This document shows, piece after piece, positions 14,415 to 59,559 of a DNA stretch of 64,000 nucleotides (position 1 is the first letter of the stretch; each line of letters starts with the position of its first letter). A model generated the notes under the pieces. The model was not told the DNA's origin, searched no databases, and saw nothing but the letters and a program-made list of their open reading frames with translations. Position numbers and translations under genes: made by a program. The stretch comes from Alphaproteobacteria bacterium 32-64-14 (GTDB lineage Bacteria; Pseudomonadota; Alphaproteobacteria; Caulobacterales; Hyphomonadaceae). The DNA is taken from positions 1-64,000 of the forward strand of contig NCEM01000020.1 in assembly GCA_002280725.1 (NCBI GenBank). The letters run 5' to 3'.

Positions 14415-14420
14415 CCTTTT

Positions 14421-43307: not shown

Positions 43308-44300
43308 ATGCTACGCCTCCCCGTTCTGATTACCGCCATCCTCGCCATTGCCCCCGCCGCGCTGGCGCAGGCGGCGCCTTCGGACCCGTTCGCGCTGTCT
43401 CCGACGTCGCTAGCGCCGATGACAGAGATACCCCGCACGCCCGATGGCAAGCCCGACTTCCAGGGCGTCGTGTGGGCGACCAACTATTTTCCGGTGTTCG
43501 AGCTGTCGCCGATGAGTGCGGACCTTGTCGTGCCTGAAGACGAAGCCAGGCGCATCGTTGACACGATCTTCGCCGGCATGGCCGGTTTTCTCGAGAAGAG
43601 CATCGATCCCGAAGCACATGTGATCATGGGCGAGACGGATGGCTTGCCCATCGTGCGTGGCGAGCGCCGCACGCGCCTGATTGTCGTTCCGGCGAACGGA
43701 AAGCTGCCGTTGACCGACCAGGCGCGCCAGCTTGCCAAGGACACGGAGACGATGGATGGCGAGAAGGACAACTACGAACAGCGCCCCTCAAGCGAGCGCT
43801 GCCTGGTGGTGAGCGGCGTGCCGCCGATCCACGCGGTCATTTCCTACAACCGCCAGCGCATCATCCAGACGCCGACCCATGTCGTGATCCACAACGAGAA
43901 TGGCGATGAGGCGCGGATCATACCGTTTGCAGAGACGTTCGACGCGCCTGGCCCGACATCCTGGTATGGCGACTCGATCGCGCGCTGGGAGGGCGACACG
44001 CTGGTGATCAAGACCACCCGCACGCCTGAGATCGAGCGCGTGCGCGGACTCATGACGAAATTCGTGATGAACCCCGACGCCGTCATCACCGAGCGCTATA
44101 CGCGGCTCTCGACAGACGAACTGCTCTATCAGTTCACCATCGAGGACCCGTGGGCGTACTCGGAGCCGTGGATCGCCGAATTCTCGTTCAAGGCGGCGAC
44201 CACCGGCATGTTCCCCTCGCCTTGCCACGAGCATAACTACTCGCTGCCCAACATCCTGCGCGGACAGCGCGTGGCGGATGCGGAAGCAGCGGCGAACTGA
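43308..44300 (+). CDS. Secreted protein of unknown function, family S (copy 1)
   Basis: 330 residues; AAGAGGGA precedes the ATG at 43308. A signal peptide ends ALAQ. The mature part has IPRTPDGKPDFQGVVWATNY, IIQTPTHVVIHNENGDEARIIPF, YGDSIARWEGDTLVIKTTRT and YQFTIEDPWAYSEPWIAEF. The same blocks, in the same order, occur in the products at 48562 and 50711, so the three are paralogs of one family that I cannot name. The protein looks beta-rich and periplasmic, with CLVV...CHEHNY cysteines. Function unknown; the neighbours suggest an accessory role in periplasmic oxidation. Confidence 0.82.
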   Translation: MLRLPVLITAILAIAPAALAQAAPSDPFALSPTSLAPMTEIPRTPDGKPDFQGVVWATNYFPVFELSPMSADLVVPEDEARRIVDTIFAGMAGFLEKSIDPEAHVIMGETDGLPIVRGERRTRLIVVPANGKLPLTDQARQLAKDTETMDGEKDNYEQRPSSERCLVVSGVPPIHAVISYNRQRIIQTPTHVVIHNENGDEARIIPFAETFDAPGPTSWYGDSIARWEGDTLVIKTTRTPEIERVRGLMTKFVMNPDAVITERYTRLSTDELLYQFTIEDPWAYSEPWIAEFSFKAATTGMFPSPCHEHNYSLPNILRGQRVADAEAAAN

Positions 44301-44314
44301 GGCCAGAATGCAGG

Positions 44315-44347
44315 AGGGGCGGCCCTTGCGGACCGCCCCTCTTTGTC
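44315..44347 (+). terminator. Terminator between convergent family S gene and serine hydrolase
   Basis: AGGGGCGG (44315-44322) and CCGCCCCT (44333-44340) pair around a ten-base loop, followed by CTTTGTCTCTTTG. Confidence 0.75.
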
Positions 44348-44367
44348 TCTTTGCCTCGTCGTGAAGC

Positions 44368-45642
44368 CTACGGCTTCACAAGCGCATCGTAGATCCAGGC
44401 GCGGTTCTTGCGCTGGTATTCAGCCAGCAGCGCACGATCCTGGATCATGAACACCATGACGAGGTCGTTCTTCGGATCGACCCAGAACTCGGTTCCAGCG
44501 ATGCCGTTCCACGAGAACGTGCCATTGCCGGGGCGCTGTTTCGTGTCATCCGTCACCAGCGAGAAGCCGAGACCGAACTCCATCGAGCCCGCGACCGGGC
44601 CCATGGCCGGGAAGAACAGGCCAGCCTTGCGCATGGCGTCGTTCGTTTCCGGCTGGCGCATACGGGCGAGCGTTGCTTTCTCGATGATGCGCACGCCGCG
44701 ATACTCGCCATCGTTACGCAGCATCTCGGCGAAGCGGAGATAGTCTTCCGGCGTCGACGACAGACCACCGCCGCCCTGCAGGAAGGCGACCGGAACCGTG
44801 TAATCGTAATACAAGCCATCCGTGTGCTTCGACTGGGCAAAGCGCGCGGCATTGTCCTTCGACTGGAAGAAATGCGTGTCGGTCATGCCCAGCGGGCCTG
44901 TGACGCGCTCCTCGACGACGACATCCAGAGGCTTGCCGGCGGCGACTTCGATCACCGCGCCAAGCACGTCTGTCGAGCGCGAGTAGTTCCAGGCCGTGCC
45001 CGGCTCAGCGGCAAGCGGCAGGCCGGCGAAAATCTTCGCCTGATCGCGCGCGGTCTTGGTGGGATCGCCCTCGCCCGCAGCGGCGTATTGCTTGCCGAGC
45101 GCCGTGGTGGGCTGGATGAAGCCGTAGATGAGACCCGAGGTATGGGACATCAGGTGCCGCACTAGCATCGGCGTCTGCGCCGGCCTGGACGAGCCGTCAG
45201 CCTGGATCACGGTGAGGTTGGCGTATTCCGGCAGGTATTTGGACACCGGGTCGTCAACCGAGAGCTTGCCGTCCTCGACCAGCGTCATCGCGGCGACCGT
45301 GACGATCGGCTTGGTCATCGAGAAAACGCGGAAGATCGTCTCTTCCGTCATCGGCGCGATCTGGCCGGGGCCCTGAACGCCGAAGCCCTGCGCAAAGGCA
45401 ACCTGCCCATGGCGCGCGATCAGCAGGTAGGCGCCGGGGATCTTGCCGCTGAGCACATCGTCGTTCAGCGCCTTGCGGATCTCGCCAAGCTTGGCCTGAT
45501 CGAAACCGAGCGCTGCCGCATCGCCCTGGATGAGGGACGGCGTGAACGGATCGGCGACCTGTGGCGCGCTTTGACAACCGCTCGCAAATGCGAACGCCAA
45601 TGCCGCACCTGCGGCAAGAATGCTCCGTTTCATGAATGCCAT
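44368..45642 (-). CDS. Serine hydrolase lipoprotein, class C beta-lactamase family
   Basis: 424 residues. A lipoprotein signal ends ASGC (Cys 23). The beta-lactamase fold has SMTK (Ser 108, Lys 111), YSR (220-222) where YxN is usual, and GTFSWNGIAGTEFWVDP near the end. The LLIARHGQVAFAQGFGVQG and SKYLPEYANLTV wording is closest to EstB-like esterases and other family VIII carboxylesterases. Likely role: cleavage of esters on the periplasmic side of a membrane, possibly the first step for a substrate later oxidised by the quinoproteins nearby. ATG at 45633 is an alternative start. Confidence 0.9.
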   Translation of the reverse strand: MAFMKRSILAAGAALAFAFASGCQSAPQVADPFTPSLIQGDAAALGFDQAKLGEIRKALNDDVLSGKIPGAYLLIARHGQVAFAQGFGVQGPGQIAPMTEETIFRVFSMTKPIVTVAAMTLVEDGKLSVDDPVSKYLPEYANLTVIQADGSSRPAQTPMLVRHLMSHTSGLIYGFIQPTTALGKQYAAAGEGDPTKTARDQAKIFAGLPLAAEPGTAWNYSRSTDVLGAVIEVAAGKPLDVVVEERVTGPLGMTDTHFFQSKDNAARFAQSKHTDGLYYDYTVPVAFLQGGGGLSSTPEDYLRFAEMLRNDGEYRGVRIIEKATLARMRQPETNDAMRKAGLFFPAMGPVAGSMEFGLGFSLVTDDTKQRPGNGTFSWNGIAGTEFWVDPKNDLVMVFMIQDRALLAEYQRKNRAWIYDALVKP

Positions 45643-45913
45643 TGTACATCCTCCCCGGCTGGCTGCGGTTTGCGGCCTATCATTGCGTTGGCTGTAGCGC
45701 GCTTCCCCTGACGGTGGAAAGTCCCTCGGCGACCGGCGATGCCATCAACGGGACTTGCCCCCTTGGCGCGTTCAAAGTCTATTACGTGCGACACCTCGGC
45801 AATGGCATGGCTCTGGAGAGCGGGTTACCCATTGATCAGGTGGAGAAAGATTGCGCCTCTGGATCCGGAATGGCGAATACGCCAACGGTGAGGATACGCA
45901 AAAGGGAGAGACA

Positions 45914-46480
45914 ATGACCCGCTCAGCAATAGTGCTGGCCCTGGCGCTTGCCGTGGCCGCTTGTTCACCAGATTCTGAAGAGCCTTCATCGGCGCCATCT
46001 GGCGCCGCTCCGGTGGAAGGGATGGGCGGCGCAACCATCGCCGACTTCAAGACCGACACCAACATGCAGGACCTGATGGCCCATGTGATCGATTACAGCG
46101 CCTTTGGCGTCTGGAACGCACAGGGCTGGATCATCGACAAGGACGGCATCCACGAGTTGTTCCCCACAACCGAGGCTGGATGGGCGGCAACCGAAAGCGC
46201 GGCGTTCACGCTGGCAGAGGCGTCCAACACCCTGCTTCTGCCGGGCCGGCCGCGCGATGAGACCCGGTATTGGGTCGACTACGCCAACCAGCTCTACACG
46301 GCGGCAAAGAAGGCCCAGGCAACCGCGTTGGCGCGCGACAAACAGGCGTTCTTCGATGCCGGCGGTGAAATGTACGAGGCCTGCCTCGCCTGTCACAACC
46401 GCTACATCTCCGGCGATACGCCGGCGCCGCGCGCGAAATTGCCCGAGCTGCCGAACCGGATACCGCCGCCAAACCAGTAA
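45914..46480 (+). CDS. Cytochrome c lipoprotein, class II-like
   Basis: 188 residues, AAGGGAGAG before the ATG. The lipobox ends VAAC (Cys 17). A single heme motif CLACH is at 157-161, close to the C-terminus after several predicted helices (MQDLMAHVIDYSAFGVWNAQ, KKAQATALARDKQAFFDAGGEMYEA). C-terminal placement of CxxCH after a helical bundle is the layout of class II cytochromes (c' and c-556). It would be a membrane-tethered periplasmic electron carrier. Two polytopic membrane proteins follow it on the same strand, and two cytochrome-fused quinoproteins lie 7 and 11 kb away as possible donors. Confidence 0.85.
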   Translation: MTRSAIVLALALAVAACSPDSEEPSSAPSGAAPVEGMGGATIADFKTDTNMQDLMAHVIDYSAFGVWNAQGWIIDKDGIHELFPTTEAGWAATESAAFTLAEASNTLLLPGRPRDETRYWVDYANQLYTAAKKAQATALARDKQAFFDAGGEMYEACLACHNRYISGDTPAPRAKLPELPNRIPPPNQ

Positions 46481-46576
46481 CACTTTCTGGTGAGGCCGCC
46501 CGCGACTTGGTCGATATCAAGCCGGGTCAAGATTTCTGGACGACCGCGAATGCGGCGTCACGAGGGGAGTTAGAAT

Positions 46577-47515
46577 TTGCTGCACGATTTCATCAACTGG
46601 ATTCGGGAGGACCTTGGCAGGCTCACCGAAGAGGGCCTGTCCTGGTCGCACCAGCTGCACCAGTCGCTGTTCATGTGGAACGTCATCGAGGGCACGCACG
46701 TGCTGACGATCATGTTCTTTGCAGGCACGATCTGGCTGATCGACCTGCGCATGATGGGCGTGGCTTTCCGCAATGTGCCGCTGTCGGCGCTGAGCAAGAA
46801 AGTGCTGCCGATCACGATGGTGGCGTTCGCGGTGATGATCGTCACCGGCATTGTCGCCTTCGTCGGCCGCGACCCGATGATGTACTACCACAACATCTGG
46901 TTCCGCCTGAAAATCCTGTTCCTAATACTGGCCCTCGCGAATATCGCCTGGTTCCACTTCAAGCTGCAGAAGCACGAGCATGAATGGGACGTGATCCCTG
47001 CGGATGCCGGCATTCCCGCTGGCGCGCGCACGGGCGCGGCCTTCTGGGTGTTTGTGGCCACGTCCATTGCCCTGCTTGGCTCATTCCTGATCACGCAGGT
47101 CGATCTTGAGACCATTGTGCTGACGCGCATGGCCCTGACCATCGCGGCTGTGGTTGCGCTGTTCATCTACATCCACAAGCGCACGCCGAGCATTCCCCTG
47201 CCCGTGAAGCTCTCGGGCGGCATTTCGCTGACGGCGTGGCTGATCGTGATCATCTTCGGCCGCTTCATCGCGTACGACTGGTTCTATTGCGAAAAGACCG
47301 ATCCCGGCTCGCTCGCCTACGTGCTGCAGGAGTGCGAAGCCTACAACAACTCGGGCGGTGGAGAAGTTGAAGGCGAGGACTTCGAGGAAGCCCCTGCGGA
47401 CGACACCGCTGCTCCGGAAGGCGAGGCGCCAGAGGGCGGAGCGGAAGATCCGCCGCCTGATGGAGAAGCTGTGCCTGCCGAACCTGCCCAACCCACACCC
47501 GGCCAGGAGGGCTGA
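46577..47515 (+). CDS. DUF6644-like multi-pass membrane protein with acidic tail
   Basis: 312 residues starting at a TTG with GGGGAG about 7 bases ahead. About six membrane helices: IEGTHVLTIMFFAGTIWLIDLRMMG is the DUF6644-like first block, then helices around VMIVTGIVAFVG, WFRLKILFLILALANIAWF, FWVFVATSIALLGSFLI and LTAWLIVIIFGRFIAYDW. His residues sit in the membrane blocks and could bind heme, as in b-type cytochromes. The last 50 residues are an Asp/Glu/Pro/Ala tail. It is followed after 5 bases by a second protein of similar design. Electron transfer from the cytochrome c encoded just upstream is a reasonable but unproven role. Confidence 0.8.
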   Translation: MLHDFINWIREDLGRLTEEGLSWSHQLHQSLFMWNVIEGTHVLTIMFFAGTIWLIDLRMMGVAFRNVPLSALSKKVLPITMVAFAVMIVTGIVAFVGRDPMMYYHNIWFRLKILFLILALANIAWFHFKLQKHEHEWDVIPADAGIPAGARTGAAFWVFVATSIALLGSFLITQVDLETIVLTRMALTIAAVVALFIYIHKRTPSIPLPVKLSGGISLTAWLIVIIFGRFIAYDWFYCEKTDPGSLAYVLQECEAYNNSGGGEVEGEDFEEAPADDTAAPEGEAPEGGAEDPPPDGEAVPAEPAQPTPGQEG

Positions 47516-47520
47516 TCACC

Positions 47521-48351
47521 ATGACCTTCCAGGAACTTCTCCAGGGCATTCCCGGCGTTACCGAAACTGTCGCGGCCATGCCGGAAATGTGGCCGATCTC
47601 GCTGCTGCAGGACATCTATGCGCCGTTCGGCGCGCTCCACCTTGTGGGCCTGGCCCTCATGGGCGGGGCGGTGCTGCTGCTCAACCTGCGCCTGATGGGC
47701 AACAACGTCACGTCGCAGACGCTGCCTGACGTCGAGCGCTCGACGCGGCCGTGGCTGATCGCGGGCCTCGCCATCGTGCTGGGCACCGGCATCATCATCG
47801 GCATGCTGAACTCCTACAAGCTCTACACGTCGGTGCCGTTCTTCGCGAAGATCATGGCGCTGATCGGCGCGACCATCTTCTCGTTCGGCGTCACCAATGT
47901 GCTGGCGAAAGCTGGCGGCAAGGCGTCTGTAGGCGTGCTGGTTGCGGGCGGCATCGCGATGGCCTTCTGGCTGCTGTCGCTGGGCACCTTCTATGGCGAC
48001 CCGATCACGTCGGCCGGCCTGTTCCATCCGATCAGCGCGGGCTACGCCCTGCTTGTGATCTATGGAATGCGCACCCGGTGGATCGCCGCGGCGACCTTCC
48101 TGCTGCTCTTCGGCGGGCTGTTCGTGATGTATTGGATTGTCGGCTTCGACACGTACGAGCCGATCTTCGACACCATCTCGTTCTCGGTGAACATCGCCGG
48201 CGCGCTGATCATGGTGGCGCTGTATGGGGCGGAAATCTATCTCGGCCGCGCCGAGGAAGCCACGCCGACAGCCAAGCTGATCGCCCTGTTCTCCCTGCTC
48301 GCCTGGGTGACCGTTGCGGCTGGCGGAAGGTGGGTCGGCTTCGGCGGCTGA
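47521..48351 (+). CDS. DUF6644-like multi-pass membrane protein
   Basis: 276 residues, about eight hydrophobic segments. The block GALHLVGLALMGGAVLLLNLRLMG mirrors the HVLTIMFFAGTIWLIDLRMMG block of the preceding protein, so the two are distant paralogs and probably form a complex. Later segments include WLIAGLAIVLGTGIIIGM, GATIFSFGVTNVLA, GIAMAFWLLSLGTF and TFLLLFGGLFVMYWIVG. The genes are 5 bases apart. A very strong terminator follows at 48374, ending the cytochrome-DUF6644-DUF6644 unit. Confidence 0.8.
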   Translation: MTFQELLQGIPGVTETVAAMPEMWPISLLQDIYAPFGALHLVGLALMGGAVLLLNLRLMGNNVTSQTLPDVERSTRPWLIAGLAIVLGTGIIIGMLNSYKLYTSVPFFAKIMALIGATIFSFGVTNVLAKAGGKASVGVLVAGGIAMAFWLLSLGTFYGDPITSAGLFHPISAGYALLVIYGMRTRWIAAATFLLLFGGLFVMYWIVGFDTYEPIFDTISFSVNIAGALIMVALYGAEIYLGRAEEATPTAKLIALFSLLAWVTVAAGGRWVGFGG

Positions 48352-48373
48352 CGCGCCGTATCGCGGAAATGAG

Positions 48374-48409
48374 AAGCCCCGGAGGAGCAATCCTCCGGGG
48401 CTTTTTCTT
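48374..48409 (+). terminator. Strong rho-independent terminator
   Basis: AGCCCCGGAGGA, loop GCAA, TCCTCCGGGGCT and then TTTTTCTT. A 12-pair stem with a GNRA-type tetraloop, ending the transcript that includes the DUF6644 genes. Confidence 0.9.
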
Positions 48410-48561
48410 GGCGCGACGACTGCAGGCTCTCGCAAGTGGCAACGGTTGAGGTAGCTGGCGGCTGGCTCCGCAGAGATCTGCCAACTTCCGCCAATCGCGC
48501 CGAATGTTGTTCCCGAACGTCGGCTCAAGGTCGATACATCTGGCGAAGCGTATGCCTCGGC

Positions 48562-49605
48562 CTACTGCGCCGCCGGGCGGTCCAAGCGACCGATGCCGCG
48601 GACGACGACCGGCTGCTTGCGGCCGGTCCGCTCGATCTCGCGCGCGCCGCCGAGGATGTTCGGCACCGAATAGTTGCCCTCGTGGCAGGCGTATTCGTAG
48701 ATCCGGTCCGGCGAGCGGCGGAAGACGAGTTCACCCTTCCAGGGCTGGCTGTACGTGGCAGGATCCTCGACCGTGAACTGGTAGAAGATCGTGTCCGCGC
48801 CCTGCATCGTGAAGCGCTCGGTGACTTTCGAGTCGGGCGAGATGTAGACGAACAGCCCGAAGTCGACGCGGACAGATTCCTGCGGCTTGAAGCCGATGGT
48901 TTCGACAACCAGCGTGTCGCCATCCCATTTGCCGACGCTGGTGCCGAGATACTGGCGCATGGAATCTGGGTTGTGCTGGCCGTTCATGCGGATGATCCGC
49001 GTATCGTGAACCATCTCGATATTGATCGCGATGGCGTCAGGCGTCTGGATGATCTGATGGTGGTTGTTGTAGAGCGCGTTCAGCATGGGCGGGCCGCCCG
49101 TGGAGGCGAAGCCGATGAGGCAACGCTCGATCGGGATGCGCTCTTCGGGATTGTCGAACATGTTGTAGGTGGCGACCGACTTCATCATCGCGGTCCGCCC
49201 TGCCGGCGTGTAGGGCACCTTGCCGTTCACCGGATCATTGATCCAGGAGGAACGATAGGTGCCGTTGACCATGCCGACCTGCTTGCCGGGGTCGATCCAG
49301 AAGGCGTTGTAGCCTGCAGGATCATCGCCTGCGGCGGGCGCGCCCTTGTCCTCGGCCGTCGGCGCGTGGTCTGCAGCGGCGACGCTGGCGGCGTCGCGCT
49401 CCCACTGCTTAGCATCGGCTTCGGAGATCACGAGGTCCTTGAATTCGGGTACGCGCTCAAGGCGCGTGATCGATGAGTTCGTCCACACACCCTGGAAGTC
49501 CGGCTTGCCTTCGGGTGTGCGGGGAACGGGCCCGCCCGCCTGCGCGAACGCGGCGCTACAGGACATCAGGGCTGCGGTTGTGCAGAGGGCCAATAAACGC
49601 ATCAT
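48562..49605 (-). CDS. Secreted protein of unknown function, family S (copy 2)
   Basis: 347 residues; tandem ATG codons at 49605 and 49602 follow a GGAG. A signal peptide ends AFAQ. VPRTPEGKPDFQGVWTNSSITR, IERCLIGF, HHQIIQTPDAIAINIEMVHDTRIIRM, GKWDGDTLVVETIGF and FYQFTVEDPATYSQPWKGEL repeat the blocks of copy 1 almost word for word. YEYACHEGNYSVPNIL matches the C-terminal CHEHNYSLPNIL of copy 1. Likely periplasmic. The conserved Trp, Asp and Thr in the GDTLVVET block may form a binding site. Function unknown. Confidence 0.82.
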   Translation of the reverse strand: MMRLLALCTTAALMSCSAAFAQAGGPVPRTPEGKPDFQGVWTNSSITRLERVPEFKDLVISEADAKQWERDAASVAAADHAPTAEDKGAPAAGDDPAGYNAFWIDPGKQVGMVNGTYRSSWINDPVNGKVPYTPAGRTAMMKSVATYNMFDNPEERIPIERCLIGFASTGGPPMLNALYNNHHQIIQTPDAIAINIEMVHDTRIIRMNGQHNPDSMRQYLGTSVGKWDGDTLVVETIGFKPQESVRVDFGLFVYISPDSKVTERFTMQGADTIFYQFTVEDPATYSQPWKGELVFRRSPDRIYEYACHEGNYSVPNILGGAREIERTGRKQPVVVRGIGRLDRPAAQ

Positions 49606-49835: not shown

Positions 49836-50372
49836 TTAGAGCGCCGCGCACTTGTTGGCGTTGCCTGCGGCTGCTTCGCCCGGATCCGCACCGTCAGACG
49901 GAGCGTTCGTGCCCGAAGAGCCGACGAACAGTTTGCAACCGTTCGGGAAGGTCACGTCGCGACCGTTGGCCTTGCAGGTCGAGGTCTTGAGGCGCTTGCC
50001 TTTCCAGTCGGTCGTGCAGAGCTTGTCCTTCGACTGATAGCCACGGACCACAACTTCGGTGCCCGGCTTCAGCGAGTTCTTGTTGACGCCCGTACGGACC
50101 AGCGTGTTCGGCGTGCCGCCCTCGATCGCCCAGTTGAACGTCGAGCCGGCTTTGGCTTTGCCGAGACCGTCAACGTTCGGAACGTTGATGTGGATCCAGG
50201 TGTGGGGGTTCACCCACTCGACGTGGTCGACCTTGCCCTTCAGCAGGACCGGCAGGTCGGCGTCGAATTCCGCCGCGAAGGCGTGGTGAGCGTAAGCGGC
50301 GGTGCCGCCGCCGATGGCCGTCAGGGCGGCAAGAGTGACACCCGCGACGACAAGACGAACTTTGTTCTTCAT
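49836..50372 (-). CDS. DUF6152 family secreted protein
   Basis: 178 residues; GGAGGAAG precedes the ATG. A signal peptide ends AAYAHHAF. The mature start HHAFAAEFDADLPVLLKGKVDHVEWVNPHTWI, with NGRDVTFPNGCKLFVGSSG near the end, is the DUF6152 pattern: an OB-like periplasmic protein often encoded next to propeller dehydrogenases. Four cysteines suggest two disulfides. A C-terminal segment rich in Gly/Ala/Asp follows the domain. Function unknown; its presence between two family S genes supports a shared process. Confidence 0.85.
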   Translation of the reverse strand: MKNKVRLVVAGVTLAALTAIGGGTAAYAHHAFAAEFDADLPVLLKGKVDHVEWVNPHTWIHINVPNVDGLGKAKAGSTFNWAIEGGTPNTLVRTGVNKNSLKPGTEVVVRGYQSKDKLCTTDWKGKRLKTSTCKANGRDVTFPNGCKLFVGSSGTNAPSDGADPGEAAAGNANKCAAL

Positions 50373-50710: not shown

Positions 50711-51652
50711 CTAGTTGTTGGCTTCACGCTCCTCAGCTTCACGCTTGGCGCGATCCAGCGCAGGACCCGGCAGCGGGTTCTTGCGCAGGTGGCCGTACAT
50801 GAGCTCCTCGACGAACTCGACACACTTGAACTGCTGAAGCTGGGCGTCCTCTTCGACCTTCTTGTAGAGGACGAACGAGATTTTCCACGGCTTGGTGTAG
50901 ACGTCCTCGTCGATGATCTCGGCTTCGTAACGCATGTGGAAGTCGGACAGCGGCGTCCAGCGCTCGATCACTTTCGTGGCGTAACCGTGATGGTTGCCCG
51001 ACCGGTCGAGCCAGGTGTCCTGCAGCAGGCCCGTGACTTCGACCACGAACGTGTCGCCTTCCCAGTGGCCGTAGGACTGACCCATCCACGAATCGAGGGG
51101 AGCTTCACCTGGATCTTCAAGGTACACGTTGCGCACGGCGCCCGCGTACTCGTAGGCCATGAACACAGCCTTGTCCGAGTGGAAGATCTGGAACGGCTTG
51201 TCCATGTAGTTGGCGCGCGGGATGCCCGGCAGGTAGCATTTCACTTCCGGGTCGAGCTCAACCGCGAACTTGCGGTTCTCGTCGCGAGTGGCGAGGGCTT
51301 CGGCGGTGTAGGGGATCTTGCCATCGCCCTGCACGATGCCGATGCCGGCCGGCACGGCGCCGATGGCGCCGAGAGCAACCACGGAAGCATGCGGCACAGG
51401 CACATATGGGCCTTCGCGCATCTGAAGCGCAGCCGAAGCCGGGTGAGCTTCGATGTTGTAGTTCGCAGTGTTCAGAACCTGCCACACGCCGTTGAGATCG
51501 GGGTGCACGCCGTCCGGTCCACGCTTGGCCTTCCAGGCGGTCGCGGGCGCCGGCGCATCAGCCGCTGCCGCAGTCGCGGAGGAATCCATAGGCATTGTCT
51601 GGCAGGCGCCAAGCGCGCATGCCAAAGCCATCACTGATACAAACTTCTTCAT
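50711..51652 (-). CDS. Secreted lipoprotein of unknown function, family S (copy 3)
   Basis: 313 residues with GGAGGAG directly ahead of the ATG. The lipobox ends LGAC (Cys 17). The body has GVHPDLNGVWQVLNTANYNIEAHP, IFHSDKAVFMAYEYAGAVRNVYL, YGHWEGDTFVVEVTGLL and VYTKPWKISFVLYKK, the same block order as copies 1 and 2 but more diverged, and it is lipidated. An unrelated in-frame extension upstream was rejected. Probably anchored at the periplasmic face. Function unknown. Confidence 0.82.
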   Translation of the reverse strand: MKKFVSVMALACALGACQTMPMDSSATAAAADAPAPATAWKAKRGPDGVHPDLNGVWQVLNTANYNIEAHPASAALQMREGPYVPVPHASVVALGAIGAVPAGIGIVQGDGKIPYTAEALATRDENRKFAVELDPEVKCYLPGIPRANYMDKPFQIFHSDKAVFMAYEYAGAVRNVYLEDPGEAPLDSWMGQSYGHWEGDTFVVEVTGLLQDTWLDRSGNHHGYATKVIERWTPLSDFHMRYEAEIIDEDVYTKPWKISFVLYKKVEEDAQLQQFKCVEFVEELMYGHLRKNPLPGPALDRAKREAEEREANN

Positions 51653-52011: not shown

Positions 52012-52614
52012 TTACGCGGTGACCGCCGCAGACTGTTGCGTTCGCAGCGACTGGACGACATCAGCCGACAAAAGCAGGCGCCGGGCGCCCGGTACAACCC
52101 AGGCAGGTTCGGCAAAGGCCGGCTCGTCAAACCCCATCGCGTTGAGAAGCGTCGAGCAGAACGAGTTGGAATTCCGGCCAAAGCCCATGAACGGGTAAGG
52201 CACGCCTGCCCCACCCTCCGGACCCGTACTCAGCGCGTTGATGCGGCGGATGGCTTCAAGCGCGGGGGCGATGCGGCGTTCGACCTCTTCTGCCGTGAGA
52301 CCCTCGGCGAGGACACGCGCAGCGCCCGCAGCAATGGCCGGGCGGATATTCCAGTCGGGGCCAGAGGCTCCGTTGATTGGCATGTAGGTGCGCGGGTGGA
52401 CTTTGGTGTCGTAGCCGCGCAGGCGATCGGACCAGAGATAGCCGATGGGCTTGTGTCGCCACGCGCCGCCTTCGGCATCAAACCAGCTGGCAAGCCCGTT
52501 TATCTGCCGCACTGCGGCGCCAGCCGGATTTGCGATGACGATCATGCGGTGCGCAGCGAAGCGCGAGCGCCTCGGGATGCGGAGTTCTGCGGCGTTGACG
52601 CTCCAGCCAGTCAT
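52012..52614 (-). CDS. Hypothetical protein
   Basis: 200 residues, no recognised domain and no signal peptide. Recognisable stretches are RFAAHRMIVIANPAGAAVRQINGLASWFD, KPIGYLWSDRLRGYDTK, GLTAEEVERRIAPALEAIRRINAL and PYPFMGFGRNSNSFCSTLLNAMGF, the last with the look of a permuted papain-like or Cys-containing active-site segment (SNSFCSTLL preceded by GRN). A Cys peptidase or amidase role is thus conceivable but speculative. It is divergent from the first quinoprotein gene. Confidence 0.65.
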   Translation of the reverse strand: MTGWSVNAAELRIPRRSRFAAHRMIVIANPAGAAVRQINGLASWFDAEGGAWRHKPIGYLWSDRLRGYDTKVHPRTYMPINGASGPDWNIRPAIAAGAARVLAEGLTAEEVERRIAPALEAIRRINALSTGPEGGAGVPYPFMGFGRNSNSFCSTLLNAMGFDEPAFAEPAWVVPGARRLLLSADVVQSLRTQQSAAVTA

Positions 52615-52777: not shown

Positions 52778-54766
52778 ATGGCGAAATCCTTGCTGGCGAC
52801 AGCACTGGCGGCCGCATCGCTGGCCGTGATCGCCTCGTGCCAGACGCCGGCGCCTGCGGTTGAAACTCCCGCAGCATCCGCGGCAACGGCCACGCCTGCC
52901 CCACAGATGCCGGCGGCGCCAATCATTCCGGTTGCGGCAGCGGGCGGCGTGCATCCCGGCGAGATCGTCTACAAGACAACCTGCGCGGCCTGTCACGATA
53001 ATCCGGACGCAACACGCTCACCCTCGCGCGACAACCTGAAAGGCATGAGCTTCCAGTTCGTCAATTACACCCTCACGCAGGGCAAGATGAAGGACATGGC
53101 CGCGGGCCTCAGCGCCGAACAACGCGCCGCCGTGGTCAGCTACGTCACCGGCCGCGACACGACCAAGACAGCCGACTGGACCCCCAACATGATGTGCACC
53201 GGCGCGCGCGCTGCGGTGGACATGGGGGGGCCGAACGATGCAACGTCGACGCACTTTGGCTATGACTGGCGCAACACGCGCAAGCTTTCGGCGGCGCAGT
53301 CGGGCCTGACCACCGCGAAGATGGACGAGATGGAACTGGCGTGGAGCATCGCCTTCCCGGACGCGACCATCATGCGCTCGCAGGGCGCGATCGTGGGCGA
53401 CAACCTGTTCTATCCGGTGGCCGAGGCGGGCAAGCTTTACGCCTTCGACCTGTCGGACCCGAAGAAGCCATGCGTGCAATGGATTTACACCACGCCGGGC
53501 GAAGCGCCGCTGCGCACCAGCGTGGCCTATGGCGTGCTGGGTGATGGAACTCCGCTGCTGGTGTTCGCCGGCATCGACTCGACCGTTCACGCGGTCGATC
53601 CGCGCAACGGCAAGGCGCTGTGGACAAAGCCGGTCGGAAGCTTTTCCCACTCGATGACGACAGGTACGCCGAGCGTCCTCAAGGATCGCGTGATCGTGCC
53701 TGTTGCGCAGTTCGAGATTTCCGTTGCGCGCGATAACGCACACGATTGCTGCACCAACCATGGCTATGTGCTGTCGCTCGATCCGAAAACGGGCGCGCAG
53801 CAATGGCGCTATGACACCATGCCGGATGCAACGCCGCTGCGCGACCGTGGCGATGGCAAGCCGCTGAAGGGTCCGTCCGGCGCGCCGATCTGGAACTCGC
53901 CGGTGGTGGACGAGACGCGCGGGCTGATCTGGTTCGGCACCGGCGAAAGCAACTCGCCGCCCGCGCATACCAACACCAACGCGATCATCGCGATCGGCCT
54001 GAAAGACGGCAAGGAGAAGTGGAGCTTCCACGCGACGCCGAAGGACATCTTCAATTCCGGCTGCAGTCGCAATCCGAAGGCCGACATGCTGAACTGCGTC
54101 GGCCCGGCAGAGACGGTCTATCGCGATGTAGACTTTGGCGCGTCGGTGATCCTCGGCAAGCTGAGCGATGGCAAGGAGTTGCTCTACGCGGGCCAGAAAT
54201 CCGGCTCGGTGTGGGCGTTCGAGCCCGACACCGGCAAGGTTGTCTGGCGCAAGGCGCTGGGCACGGGCAGCGCGCTCGGCGGCGTCCACTGGGGCATCGC
54301 GTTCGACAACGACACGGTGTACGCGCCGATCTCGAGCGTGGGCGTGCCGATCCCCGGCGAGTGGGATGCCGATCCCTCGATCAAGCCCGGCCTCTATGCG
54401 CTCGACGCCAAGACCGGCGCGATCAAGTGGCAGTTCAACCCCGAGCCGCCTCCGGGAGCGACAGTTGGCCCGCGCGGATGGCGTGGGGCCGCCTTCTCGG
54501 CGGCGCCGTCGATCATCGATGGCGCTGTTGTGGCAGCCGGGCTCGATGGCACGCTCTACGTAATCGACAAGACGACCGGCAAGCTGCTGTGGACCTACAA
54601 CACCGCCCAGGAGTTCGCAGGCGTGAACGGCGTCAACGGCAAGGGCGGCTCGATCGATAGCAACTCGATCACGGCGATGAACGGCCTGCTGCTGGTGAAC
54701 TCCGGCTATGGGATGTTCGGCCAGGCAGGCGGCAACATGCTGTTGGCGTTCAAGCCGAAGGAGTGA
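52778..54766 (+). CDS. Cytochrome c-PQQ propeller lipoprotein (quinohemoprotein dehydrogenase-like, copy 1)
   Basis: 662 residues. The lipobox is IASC (Cys 21). A cytochrome c domain with CAACH (69-73) spans roughly 55-130, followed from about 160 by a PQQ-type beta-propeller whose blades carry the tryptophan-docking pattern (AIDPRNGKALW, ALDAKTGAIKWQF, VIDKTTGKLLWTY). Adjacent cysteines 324-325 in AHDCCTNHG recall the vicinal disulfide near PQQ in quinoprotein alcohol dehydrogenases. N-terminal heme domain plus propeller is the design of polyvinyl-alcohol dehydrogenase. It should oxidise an alcohol in the periplasm and pass electrons to the fused heme. PQQ synthesis genes are not in the window. 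Confidence 0.87.
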   Translation: MAKSLLATALAAASLAVIASCQTPAPAVETPAASAATATPAPQMPAAPIIPVAAAGGVHPGEIVYKTTCAACHDNPDATRSPSRDNLKGMSFQFVNYTLTQGKMKDMAAGLSAEQRAAVVSYVTGRDTTKTADWTPNMMCTGARAAVDMGGPNDATSTHFGYDWRNTRKLSAAQSGLTTAKMDEMELAWSIAFPDATIMRSQGAIVGDNLFYPVAEAGKLYAFDLSDPKKPCVQWIYTTPGEAPLRTSVAYGVLGDGTPLLVFAGIDSTVHAVDPRNGKALWTKPVGSFSHSMTTGTPSVLKDRVIVPVAQFEISVARDNAHDCCTNHGYVLSLDPKTGAQQWRYDTMPDATPLRDRGDGKPLKGPSGAPIWNSPVVDETRGLIWFGTGESNSPPAHTNTNAIIAIGLKDGKEKWSFHATPKDIFNSGCSRNPKADMLNCVGPAETVYRDVDFGASVILGKLSDGKELLYAGQKSGSVWAFEPDTGKVVWRKALGTGSALGGVHWGIAFDNDTVYAPISSVGVPIPGEWDADPSIKPGLYALDAKTGAIKWQFNPEPPPGATVGPRGWRGAAFSAAPSIIDGAVVAAGLDGTLYVIDKTTGKLLWTYNTAQEFAGVNGVNGKGGSIDSNSITAMNGLLLVNSGYGMFGQAGGNMLLAFKPKE

Positions 54767-54781
54767 GGATCAGCAGATCCT

Positions 54782-54863
54782 GTAGGGTGCATTGAGCGCA
54801 GCGAAATGCACCGTTGGTGCCTGTCGTGGGGCGGTGCATTTCGCTTCGCTCAATGCAACCTAC
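54782..54863. repeat. Palindromic element at a convergent junction (family R2)
   Basis: Left arm starts GTAGGGTGCATTGAGCG (54782), continues to AAATGCACCG at 54813; right arm 54832-54863 is its near-perfect complement ending CAATGCAACCTAC. The long stem separates the quinoprotein gene from the convergent acyl-CoA synthetase gene, whose stop codon lies inside it. A diverged copy is at 7670-7753. Confidence 0.85.
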
Positions 54864-56314
54864 GATTGGAGCCGCTCTTTCCTCAGCGCATTGCGCCTCA
54901 CTTTCCCTGCTTCGTCGCGCAGCGGTTCGTTCACCCATTCGAATGTGCGCGGGGTCTTGTAGCGCACCAGGTGGGCGTTGAGATGCGCCATCAGCGCGTC
55001 GGGATCAGCGGATCCTTCCGGGCGGTCGATGATGGCGTGGAGACGGTTTCCGGTGTTGTCGTCGGGCAGCCCGATGACGGCTGAGGAGCGGACGCCCGGG
55101 AAGGCGTCGAGTGCGGCCTCGATCTCGGCCGGATAGATGTTGGCGCCGCCGACAATGATCATGTCGGAGAGGCGGTCGGCGAGATAGAGGAAGCCGTCGG
55201 CATCCATCCAGCCCATGTCGCCGAGGCTTTCCCAGCCGCCTTCGATCGCTTTCGCGCTGGCGCCGAGATAGCTGTACGTCGTGCCCTGCCCGGTAAGCGG
55301 GCGTAGATAGACTTCACCGACTTCGCCGGGCGCGAGCGTCTGACCATCTTCGCCGACGATCTTCATCTCGCACGTGTCGACGGGCTTTCCGACGGAGCCG
55401 CGATGGGTGAGCCAGTCCTGCCCCTGAATGGTTGTCGAGCCCTGCCCCTCCGTGCCTCCGTAAAGCTCCCAGATCACCGAAGGACCGAGCCATTCGATGA
55501 AGCGCTCCTTGAGCCAGGCAGGGCAAGGTTCAGCGAGATGCCACAGCGTGCGCAGGCTGGAGAGGTCGAAGCTTTTGCGCGTCTCTTCGGGCATCGCCCA
55601 GATGCGCCGCATCATGGTGGGCACCATGTAGCAGGTGTCGACGCGCAGGCGCTCGATTGTGCGCAGCGTCTGTTCGGCATCGAAGCGCGTGGTGATGCCG
55701 ACCGTGCATCCCTTGAAGAGCGCGAACATGCACCAGAGGAATGGCCCGTTGTGATAGAGCGGGCCGGGGACGAGCATCACGCCGCGCTGCTGGATCTCGA
55801 GCGCGGGCGTATCGGGATCGTAAGCGCCGGGGCTTTTCGACACGATGAGTTTTGGACGGCCGGTGGAGCCGCCGGAGGTCATGGCTTTCAGGGATGCGGC
55901 CGTGCGTTCCGGCAAGGGATCGCTGGACAAGCTCGGGTCCGGCGTGAAGCCTTCCGGCACACAGGGCGTGGGCGCATATTCGTTCGCTGCGCAACCGACG
56001 ACGAGCGCGGGCTTGCCTAGCTCCACGATCTGGTCGCGCTCAAGTTTCGGCAGTTTGGCGGAAATCGGCTGGGGCGTGGCGCCCAACTTCCATGTCGCAA
56101 AGCAGGCCTCGATGAACGCGATGCTGTTGGGCAGGCCAATGGTGACGAACTGGTCCTGGCCGACGTCAAGCGCCGCATAGGCGCGTGCGAGGCGGTTGGT
56201 GCGGGCCTCAAACTCCGCCCATGTGACCTGCACGCCCTCATGGTCGATCGCCACGCGGTCGGGCTGCTGCTCGGCCCAGAAGGCGATGATCCGTGACAGC
56301 GAGATAACCGGCAT
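54860..56314 (-). CDS. Acyl-CoA synthetase (AMP-forming)
   Basis: 484 residues from the ATG at 56314 (GGAG upstream); an earlier ATG at 56434 would add 40 residues lacking a start signal. It is an ANL superfamily enzyme: MTSGGSTGRPKLIVSK is the phosphate-binding loop, IWELYGGTEGQG the adenylate motif, and GDMGWMDADGFLYLADRLSDMIIVGGANIYP the hinge region, with the catalytic Lys in GKVRRNALR. It activates a carboxylic acid as its CoA thioester; wording is like cyclohexanecarboxylate-, bile-acid- or aryl-CoA ligases. Lying between two quinoprotein genes, it may activate an acid made by periplasmic oxidation. Confidence 0.9.
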   Translation of the reverse strand: MPVISLSRIIAFWAEQQPDRVAIDHEGVQVTWAEFEARTNRLARAYAALDVGQDQFVTIGLPNSIAFIEACFATWKLGATPQPISAKLPKLERDQIVELGKPALVVGCAANEYAPTPCVPEGFTPDPSLSSDPLPERTAASLKAMTSGGSTGRPKLIVSKSPGAYDPDTPALEIQQRGVMLVPGPLYHNGPFLWCMFALFKGCTVGITTRFDAEQTLRTIERLRVDTCYMVPTMMRRIWAMPEETRKSFDLSSLRTLWHLAEPCPAWLKERFIEWLGPSVIWELYGGTEGQGSTTIQGQDWLTHRGSVGKPVDTCEMKIVGEDGQTLAPGEVGEVYLRPLTGQGTTYSYLGASAKAIEGGWESLGDMGWMDADGFLYLADRLSDMIIVGGANIYPAEIEAALDAFPGVRSSAVIGLPDDNTGNRLHAIIDRPEGSADPDALMAHLNAHLVRYKTPRTFEWVNEPLRDEAGKVRRNALRKERLQS

Positions 56315-56507
56315 TGTCTCAGTCTCCGCTGCAAACAGGCGTTGGACCGTCGAATGTCCGCCGTCCGTTGGCAAGGCCGGGACGGGCGGCATGTTTGGGT
56401 GGGATTTGGGATCACCTGTTGACGCTGACGTCATCTAGGTAGGAGTGTGCACCCTAGCAGCCGGAGGTCGCGCGATAGACGCGGTCAGGCATGCGGGAGG
56501 GAATTTC

Positions 56508-58451
56508 ATGTTTCGCAAGCTTGCTTCGGCAGTCGCCGTTTCGGCCATCGCGCTGGCCGTTTCCTGCACGACGCCATCGGAGACCGCGCAGGTCGCAGCC
56601 GACGCGCAGGCGCCAGTCAGCCAACCGATACCGGTGGCGCAGGTAACAGGTCCGCATCCGGGTGAGGCGGTTTACAAAACCCGCTGCGCCGCATGTCACG
56701 ATAATTCCGAAGCAACCAAGGCGCCCTCACCTGAGACGATGGCGCGGCTGACGCCGGGCCACATCACCAACGCGCTGATGACAGGCATCATGATCCCGCA
56801 GGCGGTGGGGCTGAGCTCGAAGGAAGTGTCGGACGTCTCCAACTATCTCGCCAAGGGTGGCGGTCAGGATGATGGGTGGGTTGAAGCCATGCGCTGCCCC
56901 GCCGCGCGCGCGACGCCGAAGCTGGATGCTGCGCCTACTGTGGCGACCTTTGGCTTCAACACAAGCAACACGCGCCGCCTCGATCCGGCTCAGGTAGGCC
57001 TTGCCGGCAAGGACCTGACCACGCTCGAACTTGCATGGACCATCGCCTTCCCGAACGCGATCACGATGCGCAGCCAGGCTGCGGTCGTCGGCTCGACGCT
57101 GTTCCTGCCGGTGGGTGAGAGCAACAACCGGCTGTTCGCGTTCGACATCTCGGATAACCAGAAGCCCTGCATCCAATGGGTCTATGAAGGCAAGCAGACG
57201 CTGCGCACCAGCGCGGGCTTCGGCACGCGCCAGGATGGCAAAAAGGTCGTCATGGTCGGCGACATGGGCGGCTTTGTGCACATGATCGACGCGGTGAACG
57301 GCAAGGAGCTGTGGGCCGCGCACATGGGGCTGTTCCCCGCCTCGATCTCGACGGGGACGCCGGTGCTGGTCGGCGACAAGGTGATCGCGCCGTCCTCCCA
57401 GTACGAGATCATGTTGGCCGCGCAGGACTCCTACGAGTGCTGCAAGATCCACGGCGGCGTCGTCGCGCTCGATGCGATGACCGGCAAGCGCGTGTGGGAA
57501 GGCCACACGATGGAACAGGCCAAGCCCATCAAGGATCGCGGCGATGGGCAGATGCTGTGGGGACCGGCAGGTGCGCCGGTCTGGAACTCGCCATCGATCG
57601 ATGTCGCGCGCAACCGGCTCTATGTTGGCACGGGCGAAGCGAACGCGGCTCCCGCGCACCACAACACGAACGCCATCATGGCCTTCGACCTGCGCGATGG
57701 TTCGATCAAGTGGTCGCATCAGGCAACGGCCAACGATGTCTTCAACGTCGGATGCGGGCCAAAGGGCGGCAAGCTGAACTGCTCGGCGGATACCGTTTTC
57801 CGCGATGTTGACTTCGGCGCCTCAACCATTCTCGCCAAGGCGCCGAACGGCAAGGAGCTTGTGTTGGCGGGCCAGAAGTCCGGCACGGTGTGGGCGATGA
57901 ACCCGGACACGGGCGCGGTCGTCTGGCGCCGCGATATCGGCACGGGCGGCCCCAACGGCGGCATCCACTGGGGCATCGCCGCTGACGCGACGCACGTCTA
58001 TGCGCCGATCAGCTATCCCGGCCGCTCCATCCCCGGACAGGACGTAGACCCCACGCTCAAGCCCGGCCTCTACGCCGTGAACCTCAACGATGGAACGATC
58101 GACTGGAAGTTCGAGGTTGCGCCCGACTGCACGGACGCCCGCAAGAAGTTCGTGCCGCGCTGCAATGGCCTGTTCGGCCTGTCGGGCGCACCGACGGTGA
58201 TCGGTGACCACATCATCACGGGAGGCCTCGATGGCCGCGTCTACATGGTTGAGCGCAAGACGGGGAAGCTGGTCTGGCAGTTCGACACGGCACGCGACTT
58301 CACGACGCTCAACGGCGTCAAAGGCAATGGCGGCTCGGTCGACAATGCGTCGATCATCGCAGCCAACGGACTGGTGATCATGAACTCCGGCTATGGCCTG
58401 TTCGGCCAGGGCGCGGGGAACGTGATGATCGCGTTCAAGCCGAAAAGCTGA
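56508..58451 (+). CDS. Cytochrome c-PQQ propeller lipoprotein (copy 2)
   Basis: 647 residues, GGGAGG before the ATG. The lipobox is AVSC (Cys 20). The cytochrome motif CAACH is at 60-64; the propeller starts near 150 with FGFNTSNTRRLDPAQVGL. It is a paralog of the protein at 52778: both share TMRSQ/IMRSQ, GAPVWNSPSID/GAPIWNSPVVD, GQKSGTVWA/GQKSGSVWA and the C-terminal NSGYGLFGQ/NSGYGMFGQ, and both have adjacent cysteines (311-312 in SYECCKIHGG). A second substrate range or induction condition is likely. A 15-pair hairpin follows the gene. Confidence 0.87.
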   Translation: MFRKLASAVAVSAIALAVSCTTPSETAQVAADAQAPVSQPIPVAQVTGPHPGEAVYKTRCAACHDNSEATKAPSPETMARLTPGHITNALMTGIMIPQAVGLSSKEVSDVSNYLAKGGGQDDGWVEAMRCPAARATPKLDAAPTVATFGFNTSNTRRLDPAQVGLAGKDLTTLELAWTIAFPNAITMRSQAAVVGSTLFLPVGESNNRLFAFDISDNQKPCIQWVYEGKQTLRTSAGFGTRQDGKKVVMVGDMGGFVHMIDAVNGKELWAAHMGLFPASISTGTPVLVGDKVIAPSSQYEIMLAAQDSYECCKIHGGVVALDAMTGKRVWEGHTMEQAKPIKDRGDGQMLWGPAGAPVWNSPSIDVARNRLYVGTGEANAAPAHHNTNAIMAFDLRDGSIKWSHQATANDVFNVGCGPKGGKLNCSADTVFRDVDFGASTILAKAPNGKELVLAGQKSGTVWAMNPDTGAVVWRRDIGTGGPNGGIHWGIAADATHVYAPISYPGRSIPGQDVDPTLKPGLYAVNLNDGTIDWKFEVAPDCTDARKKFVPRCNGLFGLSGAPTVIGDHIITGGLDGRVYMVERKTGKLVWQFDTARDFTTLNGVKGNGGSVDNASIIAANGLVIMNSGYGLFGQGAGNVMIAFKPKS

Positions 58452-58474
58452 CGCCGTCAACTTTCTGGAACGAC

Positions 58475-58508
58475 AGCGCGGCTCGCCATGAGAATGGCGG
58501 GCCGCGCT
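58475..58508 (+). terminator. Hairpin terminator after quinoprotein copy 2
   Basis: AGCGCGGCTCGCCAT, loop GAGA, ATGGCGGGCCGCGCT: a 15-pair stem with one G-T pair, then TGTGTTTGG. It is about 24 bases after the stop. Confidence 0.8.
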
Positions 58509-58557
58509 TGTGTTTGGCGGCCGCTCGCCTTTAGTGGCCGTGGCAATGGAGGCTGGC

Positions 58558-59559
58558 ATGGCAAGCGACAAGGACAAGCTGGTTCGCGATCAGCCCGTCA
58601 GCATGCCAACCGAGCAGGGACCGCTCGCCGTCTATAAGGGCGCACAACCGCCCGCGCCGAAATGGTTCGAGGACGCGGTTGCGACACCCTACGATACGGC
58701 GTTCGTCGACTGCGAAGGCGCGCGGATCCACTATCAGAGCTGGGGCGATACGGCGAAGCCCGGCCTGCTGCTGGTGCACGGCAATGGCGCTCACGCGCAC
58801 TGGTGGGACTTCGTCGCGCCCTACCTGACGGATGACTACCACGTTGTCGCCATGACGTTCTCGGGCATGGGTGATTCAGACTGGCGCGAGCGCTATGTCA
58901 TGGACACGTTCGCGAAAGAGCAGCTGGCCGTGTGCGAAGCGGCCGGCCTGTTCGCGCACGCCGAGAAGCCGATCATCGTCGCGCATTCGTTCGGCGGCTT
59001 CGTTACCATCCTGACGGGCGCAGAACACGGCGACAGGTTCGGCGGCATCGTGCTGGTCGACTCGCCGGTGAACCCGCCCGACCGGCCGCGCTCGGGCCCG
59101 CCGCCTGTGCGTGGCGGCAAGGTCTATCCAAGCCTTGAGGCGGCCCTGGCGCGCTTCAGGCTGGCGCCGCCGCAGCTGTGCGAGAATCACTACGTCATGG
59201 ATTACATCGCGCGCTGGTCCCTGGCAAAGAAGCCGGGGCCGGATGGGACAGATGGCTGGGGCTGGAAGTTCGATCCCTCGATCTGGCAGCGCTTCTCCGT
59301 CTCCCGCCCGCCGCAGGAGCTTCTGAAAGAGACGCGGTGCCGGATCGCGCTGTTCAAGGGCGAGAAGTCGATTCTCTGGGAGGACGATGTCGGCGACTAC
59401 ATGCGCGGGCTGCTGAACCGGCAGGTTCCCTTCATCGAGATTCCTGAAGCCCGCCATCACATCATGCTGGACCAGCCGCTGGCCTTCGTGGCCGCGCTAC
59501 GGACCCTGCTGCAGGAGTGGCAGTATTCGACCCCAGACAGGGTGGTTTCAGTCAGGTAG
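58558..59559 (+). CDS. Alpha/beta hydrolase
   Basis: 333 residues from ATG 58558, which has GGAGG 7 bases ahead. The fold includes LLLVHGNGAHAHWWDFVAPYL (oxyanion HGNG, 74-77), the nucleophile elbow VAHSFGG (Ser 144) and a late EARHHIMLDQP with the probable catalytic His. No signal peptide, so cytoplasmic. Homologs act as esterases, epoxide hydrolases or C-C hydrolases. It closes the quinoprotein group and may hydrolyse an ester or a CoA-derived intermediate of the same pathway. Confidence 0.87.
   Translation: MASDKDKLVRDQPVSMPTEQGPLAVYKGAQPPAPKWFEDAVATPYDTAFVDCEGARIHYQSWGDTAKPGLLLVHGNGAHAHWWDFVAPYLTDDYHVVAMTFSGMGDSDWRERYVMDTFAKEQLAVCEAAGLFAHAEKPIIVAHSFGGFVTILTGAEHGDRFGGIVLVDSPVNPPDRPRSGPPPVRGGKVYPSLEAALARFRLAPPQLCENHYVMDYIARWSLAKKPGPDGTDGWGWKFDPSIWQRFSVSRPPQELLKETRCRIALFKGEKSILWEDDVGDYMRGLLNRQVPFIEIPEARHHIMLDQPLAFVAALRTLLQEWQYSTPDRVVSVR

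Follow-up and report, generated by a model that had tools for sequence, protein, structure and literature searches.

Does a run of genes for secreted, membrane, and cytochrome c-PQQ propeller proteins in the uncultured Hyphomonadaceae member Alphaproteobacteria bacterium 32-64-14 make up a single periplasmic oxidation system, and which of them belong to it? A preliminary description of the window (the whole stretch of DNA analyzed, 64 kb) had proposed ester cleavage, alcohol oxidation, electron transfer through a cytochrome and a pair of membrane proteins, and CoA activation of the acid. Its gene list was borne out, every gene being located with its domains, and one conserved gene for a 200-aa protein (52012-52614, minus strand) had been overlooked. 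The features are as follows.

37707-42086, plus: flanking RND efflux pump (fusion protein, 37707-38906; permease, 38925-42086); sub-threshold match to an NCBIfam multidrug RND subfamily
42152-43150, minus: AraC-type regulator (PF12625 and PF12833); start uncertain, up to 43243
43308-44300, plus: S1, secreted family S protein, 35% identical to S2
44368-45642, minus: beta-lactamase-fold serine hydrolase lipoprotein, esterase-like (PF00144, 2e-67)
45914-46480, plus: small c-type cytochrome lipoprotein; CxxCH near the C terminus (PF01322 sub-threshold, E = 0.005)
46577-47515, plus: DUF6644-type membrane protein A (PF20349 sub-threshold, 16 bits; same profile as B)
47521-48351, plus: DUF6644 membrane protein B (PF20349, 63 bits, above the gathering cut-off)
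48562-49605, minus: S2, secreted family S protein, predicted calycin-type beta-barrel (AF2 model, Foldseek)
49836-50372, minus: DUF6152 protein (PF19649, 102.6 bits against a gathering cut-off of 27); predicted mature N terminus His-His
50711-51652, minus: S3, divergent family S lipoprotein (remote, about 25% identity)
52012-52614, minus: conserved 200-aa gene, no Pfam family; some twelve related loci have a homologue
52778-54766, plus: PQQ1, cytochrome c-PQQ propeller lipoprotein, PVA-dehydrogenase-like (PF13360, PF01011)
54860-56434, minus: acyl-CoA synthetase-like AMP-binding enzyme, accessory (PF00501)
56508-58451, plus: PQQ2, cytochrome c-PQQ propeller lipoprotein, 48% identical to PQQ1
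58546-59559, plus: alpha/beta hydrolase without an evident signal peptide (PF12697)

Given that the strands alternate and that the genes fall into at least seven transcription units, this is a neighborhood and not an operon. The AraC-type gene adjoins S1 in several congeners (L147, L148, and L152), and the alpha/beta hydrolase gene sits downstream of PQQ2 across the genus.

The nature of the enzymes was approached through PQQ1, in which an N-terminal CxxCH heme domain precedes the PQQ propeller. It aligned colinearly, end to end, with a PVA dehydrogenase (PVADH)-type protein (31% identity over 684 columns; E = 1e-81), with the CxxCH in register; the upstream neighbor of the matched gene encodes an oxidized-PVA hydrolase (OPH). 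The best solved relatives of the PQQ proteins were quinohemoprotein alcohol dehydrogenases (QH-ADH), and K474 (the Lys of a Q-K-S-G motif) and an adjacent Cys pair were invariant. At the place of the QH-ADH catalytic Asp, PQQ1 has an Asn, so that the PQQ chemistry of PQQ1 and PQQ2 stands as a prediction, and a Ca-ligand position is also out of register; the PVADH-type protein likewise deviates in the catalytic-Asp region, yet aligns with PQQ1 over its full length. The periplasmic quinoprotein oxidation of the preliminary description is plausible. PQQ1 and PQQ2 are probably PVA-dehydrogenase-type heme-PQQ enzymes working outside the cell membrane, and their substrate is probably some greasy or esterified alcohol. 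The gene pqqC was detectable in 0 of 15 congeners (as a positive control, a class-level search placed 15 of 91 genomes over the cut-off), and therefore PQQ must be imported. Lanthanide dependence through the Asp-x-Asp at PQQ1 positions 450 to 452 was dropped, since alignments to solved enzymes put D450 off the catalytic Asp. The literature searched held nothing on Hyphomonadaceae quinoproteins.

The comparison of gene neighborhoods that the preliminary description had suggested was run, and recurrence exceeded chance in both Fisher and distance statistics. In at least five genera of the family, and also in a sister family, DUF6152 is found again in company with a DUF6644 pair, the cytochrome, family S, and a c-PQQ gene. 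Among 105 genomes of the family, with the own genus excluded, DUF6152 co-occurred with strong PQQ1 homologues (Fisher p = 1e-10), and the two genes were at most 12 kb apart in 10 of the 12 genomes having both (p about 2e-16, own genus again excluded), values that are optimistic because the genomes are related to each other. Gene order was maintained between genera although protein identity was only 30 to 45%. Spacing resembling cotranscription was found in relatives for c-PQQ and cytochrome together with either the DUF6644 pair or DUF6152 and S. For instance, an operon of the sister family (L230) runs S-PQQ-cyt-DUF6152-S with gaps of 29 to 53 bp, and four loci (L159, L160, L165, and L166) carry the operon PQQ-cyt-HupE-anchor-DUF6644-DUF6644 with small gaps. 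In another family (L228, L229, and L238), S, DUF6152, PQQ enzymes, and the DUF6644 pair stand with a carboxylesterase of a different family, which is an independent assembly of the same gene set.

What DUF6152 and DUF6644 contribute was examined from several sides. In nearly all DUF6152 proteins (present once in this genome), His-His directly follows the Ala or Ser at the expected signal peptide end, with two exceptions among those listed; this predicted mature N terminus was read from the sequence alone. The AF2 model (pLDDT 57.5, low confidence) is too weak for more than an OB-like strand order, with OB-like structural matches, and a CopC fold is no more than a possibility. Membrane proteins A and B both fall into one profile, and the weak family matches of its 44 members were to CopD (PF05425; 5 members, counted at E up to 0.1, best E 8.9e-9), DUF2214 (20 members), and UPF0093/HemJ (6 members). 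DUF6644 nearly always adjoins DUF6152, its commonest partnership being with DUF6152 and neither cytochrome nor quinoprotein. In locus L232, Zn/Mn-type metal ABC transporter genes lie downstream of the DUF6644 genes, and operons of two genera include HupE/UreJ_2, where HupE reads A/HDVS at the predicted cleavage point, that is, with a predicted mature N-terminal His. Such an arrangement in HupE/UreJ_2 N-domains has been shown to bind copper (PMC12537917). From these sequence features, DUF6152 and DUF6644 are read as a putative CopC/CopD-style metal-handling pair rather than a proven electron acceptor. The minimal pair also occurs where there is no quinoprotein, and it may thus work independently of PQQ. 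It is possible, if doubtful, that the two families represent a new, widespread His-N-terminus metal-handling system of Pseudomonadota (probably for copper), whose HH[A/S]F branch joined calycin-like proteins and was wired into quinoprotein operons; periplasmic alcohol oxidation would then depend on a dedicated metal supply or a copper redox protein. No mention of DUF6152 or DUF6644 was found in the literature searched.

The preliminary description had instead assigned the DUF6644 pair the task of accepting the cytochrome's electrons in the membrane, for which it might carry heme b; we regard this as unlikely while granting it some weight. The operon that c-PQQ, cytochrome, and the DUF6644 pair have in common in two other genera agrees with it, as do the HemJ-family matches and the conserved H41 and invariant K112; HemJ is a b-type heme protein with a conserved His and Lys, and single-His heme binding of this type by DUF6644 may exist. 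However, the bis-histidine heme pattern is absent from the DUF6644 alignment, in which H41 is the sole conserved His, and the prevalent pairing with DUF6152 alone also weakens an acceptor role. A di-heme cytochrome b561-like identity was rejected, since DUF6644 has no membrane His pairs.

The neighborhood might also be two independent units side by side. In that case a cyt-DUF6644/DUF6152-S module would be ancient and a catabolic island of PQQ1, PQQ2, and hydrolase a later arrival, which would fit the alternation of strands and the housekeeping-type genes (an ABC transporter and a TesA-like esterase) that separate S3 from PQQ1 in other congeners; for these same reasons, coexpression in the window is no more than a possibility. 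Along similar lines, the PQQ1 orthologues of Phenylobacterium stand outside the module, beside an SDR gene, so that a PQQ1-type enzyme does not need the module. Nevertheless, other genera place c-PQQ first in the cytochrome-DUF6644 transcript or within the S-cyt-DUF6152 transcript, and linkage outside the genus is far above chance, making a mere juxtaposition quite unlikely.

On the side of the substrate, the best NCBIfam match of the serine hydrolase was AcmB (9.7e-45; 153 bits, below the cut-off of 550). In other clusters, too, PQQ genes have esterase neighbors, there of an unrelated family that takes the place of the window's hydrolase; an esterase partner for the oxidation is plausible. 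CoA activation was not borne out: the acyl-CoA synthetase is confined to some five species of the genus, is missing from otherwise intact clusters, and is absent from most related ones. A defensive role, in which hydrophobic toxic alcohols or a metal would be oxidized and exported by the neighboring RND pump and not used as food, draws on the orthologous pump that members of the genus and Hyphomonas have next to the module (RND orthologues scored >1,100 bits in L158, L155, L154, and L151) and on other kinds of RND pumps near the modules of L164 to L166 and L232. It appears improbable, as RND genes are common, none was detected in the examined loci of genus g8, and the esterase, hydrolase, and CoA ligase suit catabolism better. 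The pump, syntenic in two genera and replaced elsewhere by different RND subfamilies, is not claimed as a component. Finally, it is highly improbable that the propellers have lost PQQ binding and remain as cytochrome-bearing scaffolds, a reading to which the NCBIfam "acido-empty-quinoprotein" model (its score, like that of the PQQ alcohol dehydrogenase model to which it comes close, is far under the cut-off), the out-of-register Asp, and the missing pqqC could point, but which the equally deviant PVADH-type protein, aligned end to end, and the invariant K474 and Cys pair oppose.

Family S, with 29 copies in the genome, had no match in Pfam or NCBIfam for S1, S2, or S3 (S1 and S2, 34 to 35% identity; S3, about 25%). 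The AF2 model of S2, of middling confidence (pTM 0.70, pLDDT 67), is a ten-strand barrel that Foldseek matched to CRBP/FABP with a probability of 1.00 at an aligned identity of only 10 to 18%; Z was 8.3, at the edge of significance (rmsd 3.1, 126 residues). Family S is thus predicted from the model to be a fatty-acid/retinol-binding-type (calycin) barrel.

Our preferred reading, tentative and put at somewhat less than an even chance, is a periplasmic PVA-dehydrogenase-type quinohemoprotein oxidation system that acts on an alcohol, either hydrophobic or esterified, and includes an uncharacterized accessory module. The lipoprotein hydrolase would release the alcohol from an ester, and the family S barrels would bind or deliver the greasy ligand. 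PQQ1 and PQQ2, carrying imported PQQ, would oxidize the alcohol, and electrons would leave through the heme c that each enzyme carries at its N terminus, reach the small cytochrome c lipoprotein, whose CxxCH is invariant in 21 relatives, and enter the respiratory chain. DUF6152, through its His-His, and the DUF6644 membrane proteins would be a CopC/CopD-style metal-handling pair for the module, while the cytoplasmic hydrolase, plus the acyl-CoA synthetase in some species, would handle the product. Of the preliminary interpretation, this retains what conserved co-occurrence, the quinoprotein match, and esterase recurrence sustain, without CoA activation and with a weakened acceptor.

Among known systems, the pva operon with its PVA dehydrogenase (EC 1.1.2.6; Sphingopyxis, Pseudomonas VM15C) shares the N-terminal heme c domain and PQQ propeller in the periplasm, and in the pva-type plasmid cluster of 113P3 the neighboring genes also encode a hydrolase, a c-type cytochrome, an SDR, and an enzyme of the adenylate-forming kind. 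The characterized pva operon of 113P3 is chromosomal (PMC4611681), so that plasmid cluster (L210) is a second OPH-PVADH-type set. Identity is just 31%, however, and the window has two paralogues, both lipoproteins; its alpha/beta hydrolase and beta-lactamase-fold hydrolase have no OPH match, and its cytochrome has no cytC match at a useful E. In the pva-type cluster examined, the annotation of the neighbors names no S, DUF6152, or DUF6644. If the link holds, PVADH-like enzymes would belong to a wider oxidation system with a bearing on the breakdown of polymers and greasy pollutants. Type II quinohemoprotein alcohol dehydrogenases (PDB 1kb0, 1kv9, and 1yiq) also combine PQQ propeller and heme c, but with the heme domain at the opposite chain end from PQQ1 and with the catalytic Asp and Ca-ligand position out of register. 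The copper pairs CopC/CopD and YcnI/YcnJ and the HupE/UreJ_2 "anglerases" (PMC12537917, PMC12362106) resemble the accessory pair, in which a small multi-pass membrane protein likewise accompanies a small secreted protein whose mature form is predicted to start with His; DUF6152 differs in forming a Pfam family of its own, for which an OB-like fold is predicted, the DUF6644-CopD match is weak (5/44), and metal binding is a prediction. Should the link hold, DUF6152 would be a candidate new metalloprotein class. The fatty-acid/retinol-binding proteins (calycins) share the ten-strand barrel of the S2 model, which differs in an extra N-terminal part, low aligned identity, and a Z of about 8. DUF6152, DUF6644, and family S, all without known function, here gain a testable biochemical context.

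ORF calls and domain searches recovered every gene named in the preliminary description of the window. Our best reading of this neighbourhood, plausible if a little short of probable, is a periplasmic PVADH-type quinohemoprotein oxidation system for a hydrophobic or esterified alcohol, in which the secreted family S proteins would act as ligand carriers, the small cytochrome c lipoprotein as electron carrier, and the DUF6152 and DUF6644 proteins as a metal-handling pair. The window genes lie on alternating strands, so that the neighbourhood comprises several transcription units. The two cytochrome c-PQQ propeller genes and two further features are as follows.

52012-52614, minus strand, conserved 200-aa gene overlooked in the preliminary description, without Pfam match, motif FGRNSNSFCSTLLNAMG
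52778-54766, plus strand, propeller lipoprotein PQQ1
56508-58451, plus strand, propeller lipoprotein PQQ2
59726-62585, short protein matching aa3-oxidase subunit IV below threshold, followed by pntA-type transhydrogenase genes

Homologues of the 200-aa gene are found between S3 and PQQ1 in the same genus and in Hyphomonas, and the subunit IV-like and pntA-type genes also border the module in two further loci (L148 and L158), which places the cluster at a fixed chromosomal site. In L158 (Hyphomonas sp. ih12), the PQQ1 homologue is split across two frames (13168-15109), possibly a pseudogene or a sequencing error.

DUF6152, DUF6644, and strong PQQ1 homologues were mapped in 105 genomes of the family. 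Outside the genus, DUF6152 and PQQ1 homologues were associated (Fisher p=1e-10), bearing out the co-occurrence expected earlier, and lay less than 12 kb apart in 10 of 12 genomes (p about 2e-16), both values being inflated by kinship among genomes. Gene order is stronger evidence of conservation than these p-values: the beta-lactamase-fold hydrolase lipoprotein, the cytochrome, and DUF6644 A and B are followed through several genera at 30-45% protein identity, with DUF6152 and S on the opposite strand and PQQ genes nearby. The CoA activation with which the earlier scheme ended was not conserved in related clusters.

Two other genera (g8, L159 and L160; g3, L164-L166) carry PQQ, cytochrome, HupE/UreJ_2, membrane-anchored, and two DUF6644 genes in this order on a single strand, neighboring genes overlapping or lying up to about 200 bp apart, with DUF6152 and one to five S genes on the opposite strand. 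In a sister family (L230), S, PQQ, cytochrome, DUF6152, and S are consecutive (gaps of 29-53 bp). These operons tie the quinoprotein to the cytochrome and both DUF families independently of the window layout. Another family (L228, L229, and L238) combines DUF6152, S, PQQ enzymes, and the DUF6644 pair with a COesterase-family carboxylesterase in place of the beta-lactamase-fold hydrolase, while L131 holds S, DUF6152, cytochrome, and DUF6644 genes near a glucose/sorbosone-type PQQ enzyme. In the same genome as the window, contig C28 carries a further cytochrome c-PQQ gene near a carboxylesterase-like gene, as read from sequence. At L130 (5400-14350), two DUF6152 genes together with S genes adjoin carotenoid-oxygenase-like, alpha/beta-hydrolase-like, and TonB-receptor-like genes, which suggests a link to other catabolic clusters.

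DUF6152 and DUF6644 travel together. Among 385 genomes of the class, DUF6152 lay within 6 kb of DUF6644 in 27 of the 29 DUF6644-bearing genomes and within 1 kb in 23; the phylum sample, excluding our genome and sharing a few genomes with the class sample, gave 26/28 and 19/28. Nearly all DUF6152 proteins have His-His directly after the Ala/Ser expected to end the signal peptide (of two entries without it, one is likely a mis-called start), and HupE of the g3 and g8 operons likewise reads ..A|HDVS. A mature N-terminal His has served as a signature for finding new metalloproteins, among them N-domains of HupE/UreJ_2 permeases that bind copper (PMC12537917). Structural modelling of DUF6152 gave a low-confidence fold (pLDDT 57.5) with an OB-like strand order. 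Short DUF6644 proteins span the membrane about four times, and the pair in the window six or seven times; R58, G91, K112, W221, G228, and R229 are invariant, and H41 is present in all sequences except one. Weak matches were to DUF2214, UPF0093 (HemJ), and CopD. The membrane acceptor role first proposed for DUF6644 is possible, but we do not favor it over metal handling.

An S gene lies <1.5 kb from DUF6152 in 33 of 35 members of the HH[A/S]F branch versus 0/21 of the HHGW branch (p=2e-13), most of which adjoin DUF6644; as loci were partly picked for carrying both DUF families, it is the difference in S linkage that is informative. Neither Pfam nor NCBIfam gave a match for S1, S2, or S3. Sequence identity between S1 and S2 is 34-35%, whereas S3 is only remotely related. 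The AlphaFold2 model of S2 (pTM 0.70) is a barrel of about ten strands, best matched by retinol- and fatty-acid-binding proteins (Z 8.3, rmsd 3.1, 126 residues). The genome has one DUF6152 gene, five clear PQQ1-type genes, and 29 distinct S genes (counted by hand from match rows, merging fragments of one gene), the latter a large expansion often in tandem pairs or triples without DUF6152 (L143, L144, and L145).

The window belongs to an uncultured Hyphomonadaceae genome, whose closest named relatives by PQQ1 (~80% identity) are Hyphomonadaceae MAGs. Among solved enzymes, the best profile matches of PQQ1 are quinohemoprotein alcohol dehydrogenases. Aligned to these, PQQ1 has Asn at what we take to be the catalytic Asp, but neither the Lys of a Q-K-S-G motif nor the Cys pair next to it varies, making PQQ binding likely. 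Since pqqC was found in 0/15 genomes of the genus (control, 15/91 class genomes over the cut-off), PQQ would need to be imported. In Phenylobacterium and relatives (L188, L191, L195, and L208), PQQ1 orthologues (~60% identity) lack the module and are oriented divergently to an SDR gene. A homologue from the acidobacterium Granulicella (L203, 54% identity) suggests transfer between phyla.

Among known systems, the PVA degrader Sphingopyxis 113P3 encodes on a plasmid a protein to which PQQ1 aligns end to end (31% identity), and the upstream neighbor of this protein matches solved oxidised-PVA hydrolases. An SDR gene adjoins the PQQ gene in this plasmid cluster, as in the g8 loci. The characterised pva operon of 113P3 is chromosomal (PMC4611681), and the plasmid cluster is thus a second set.
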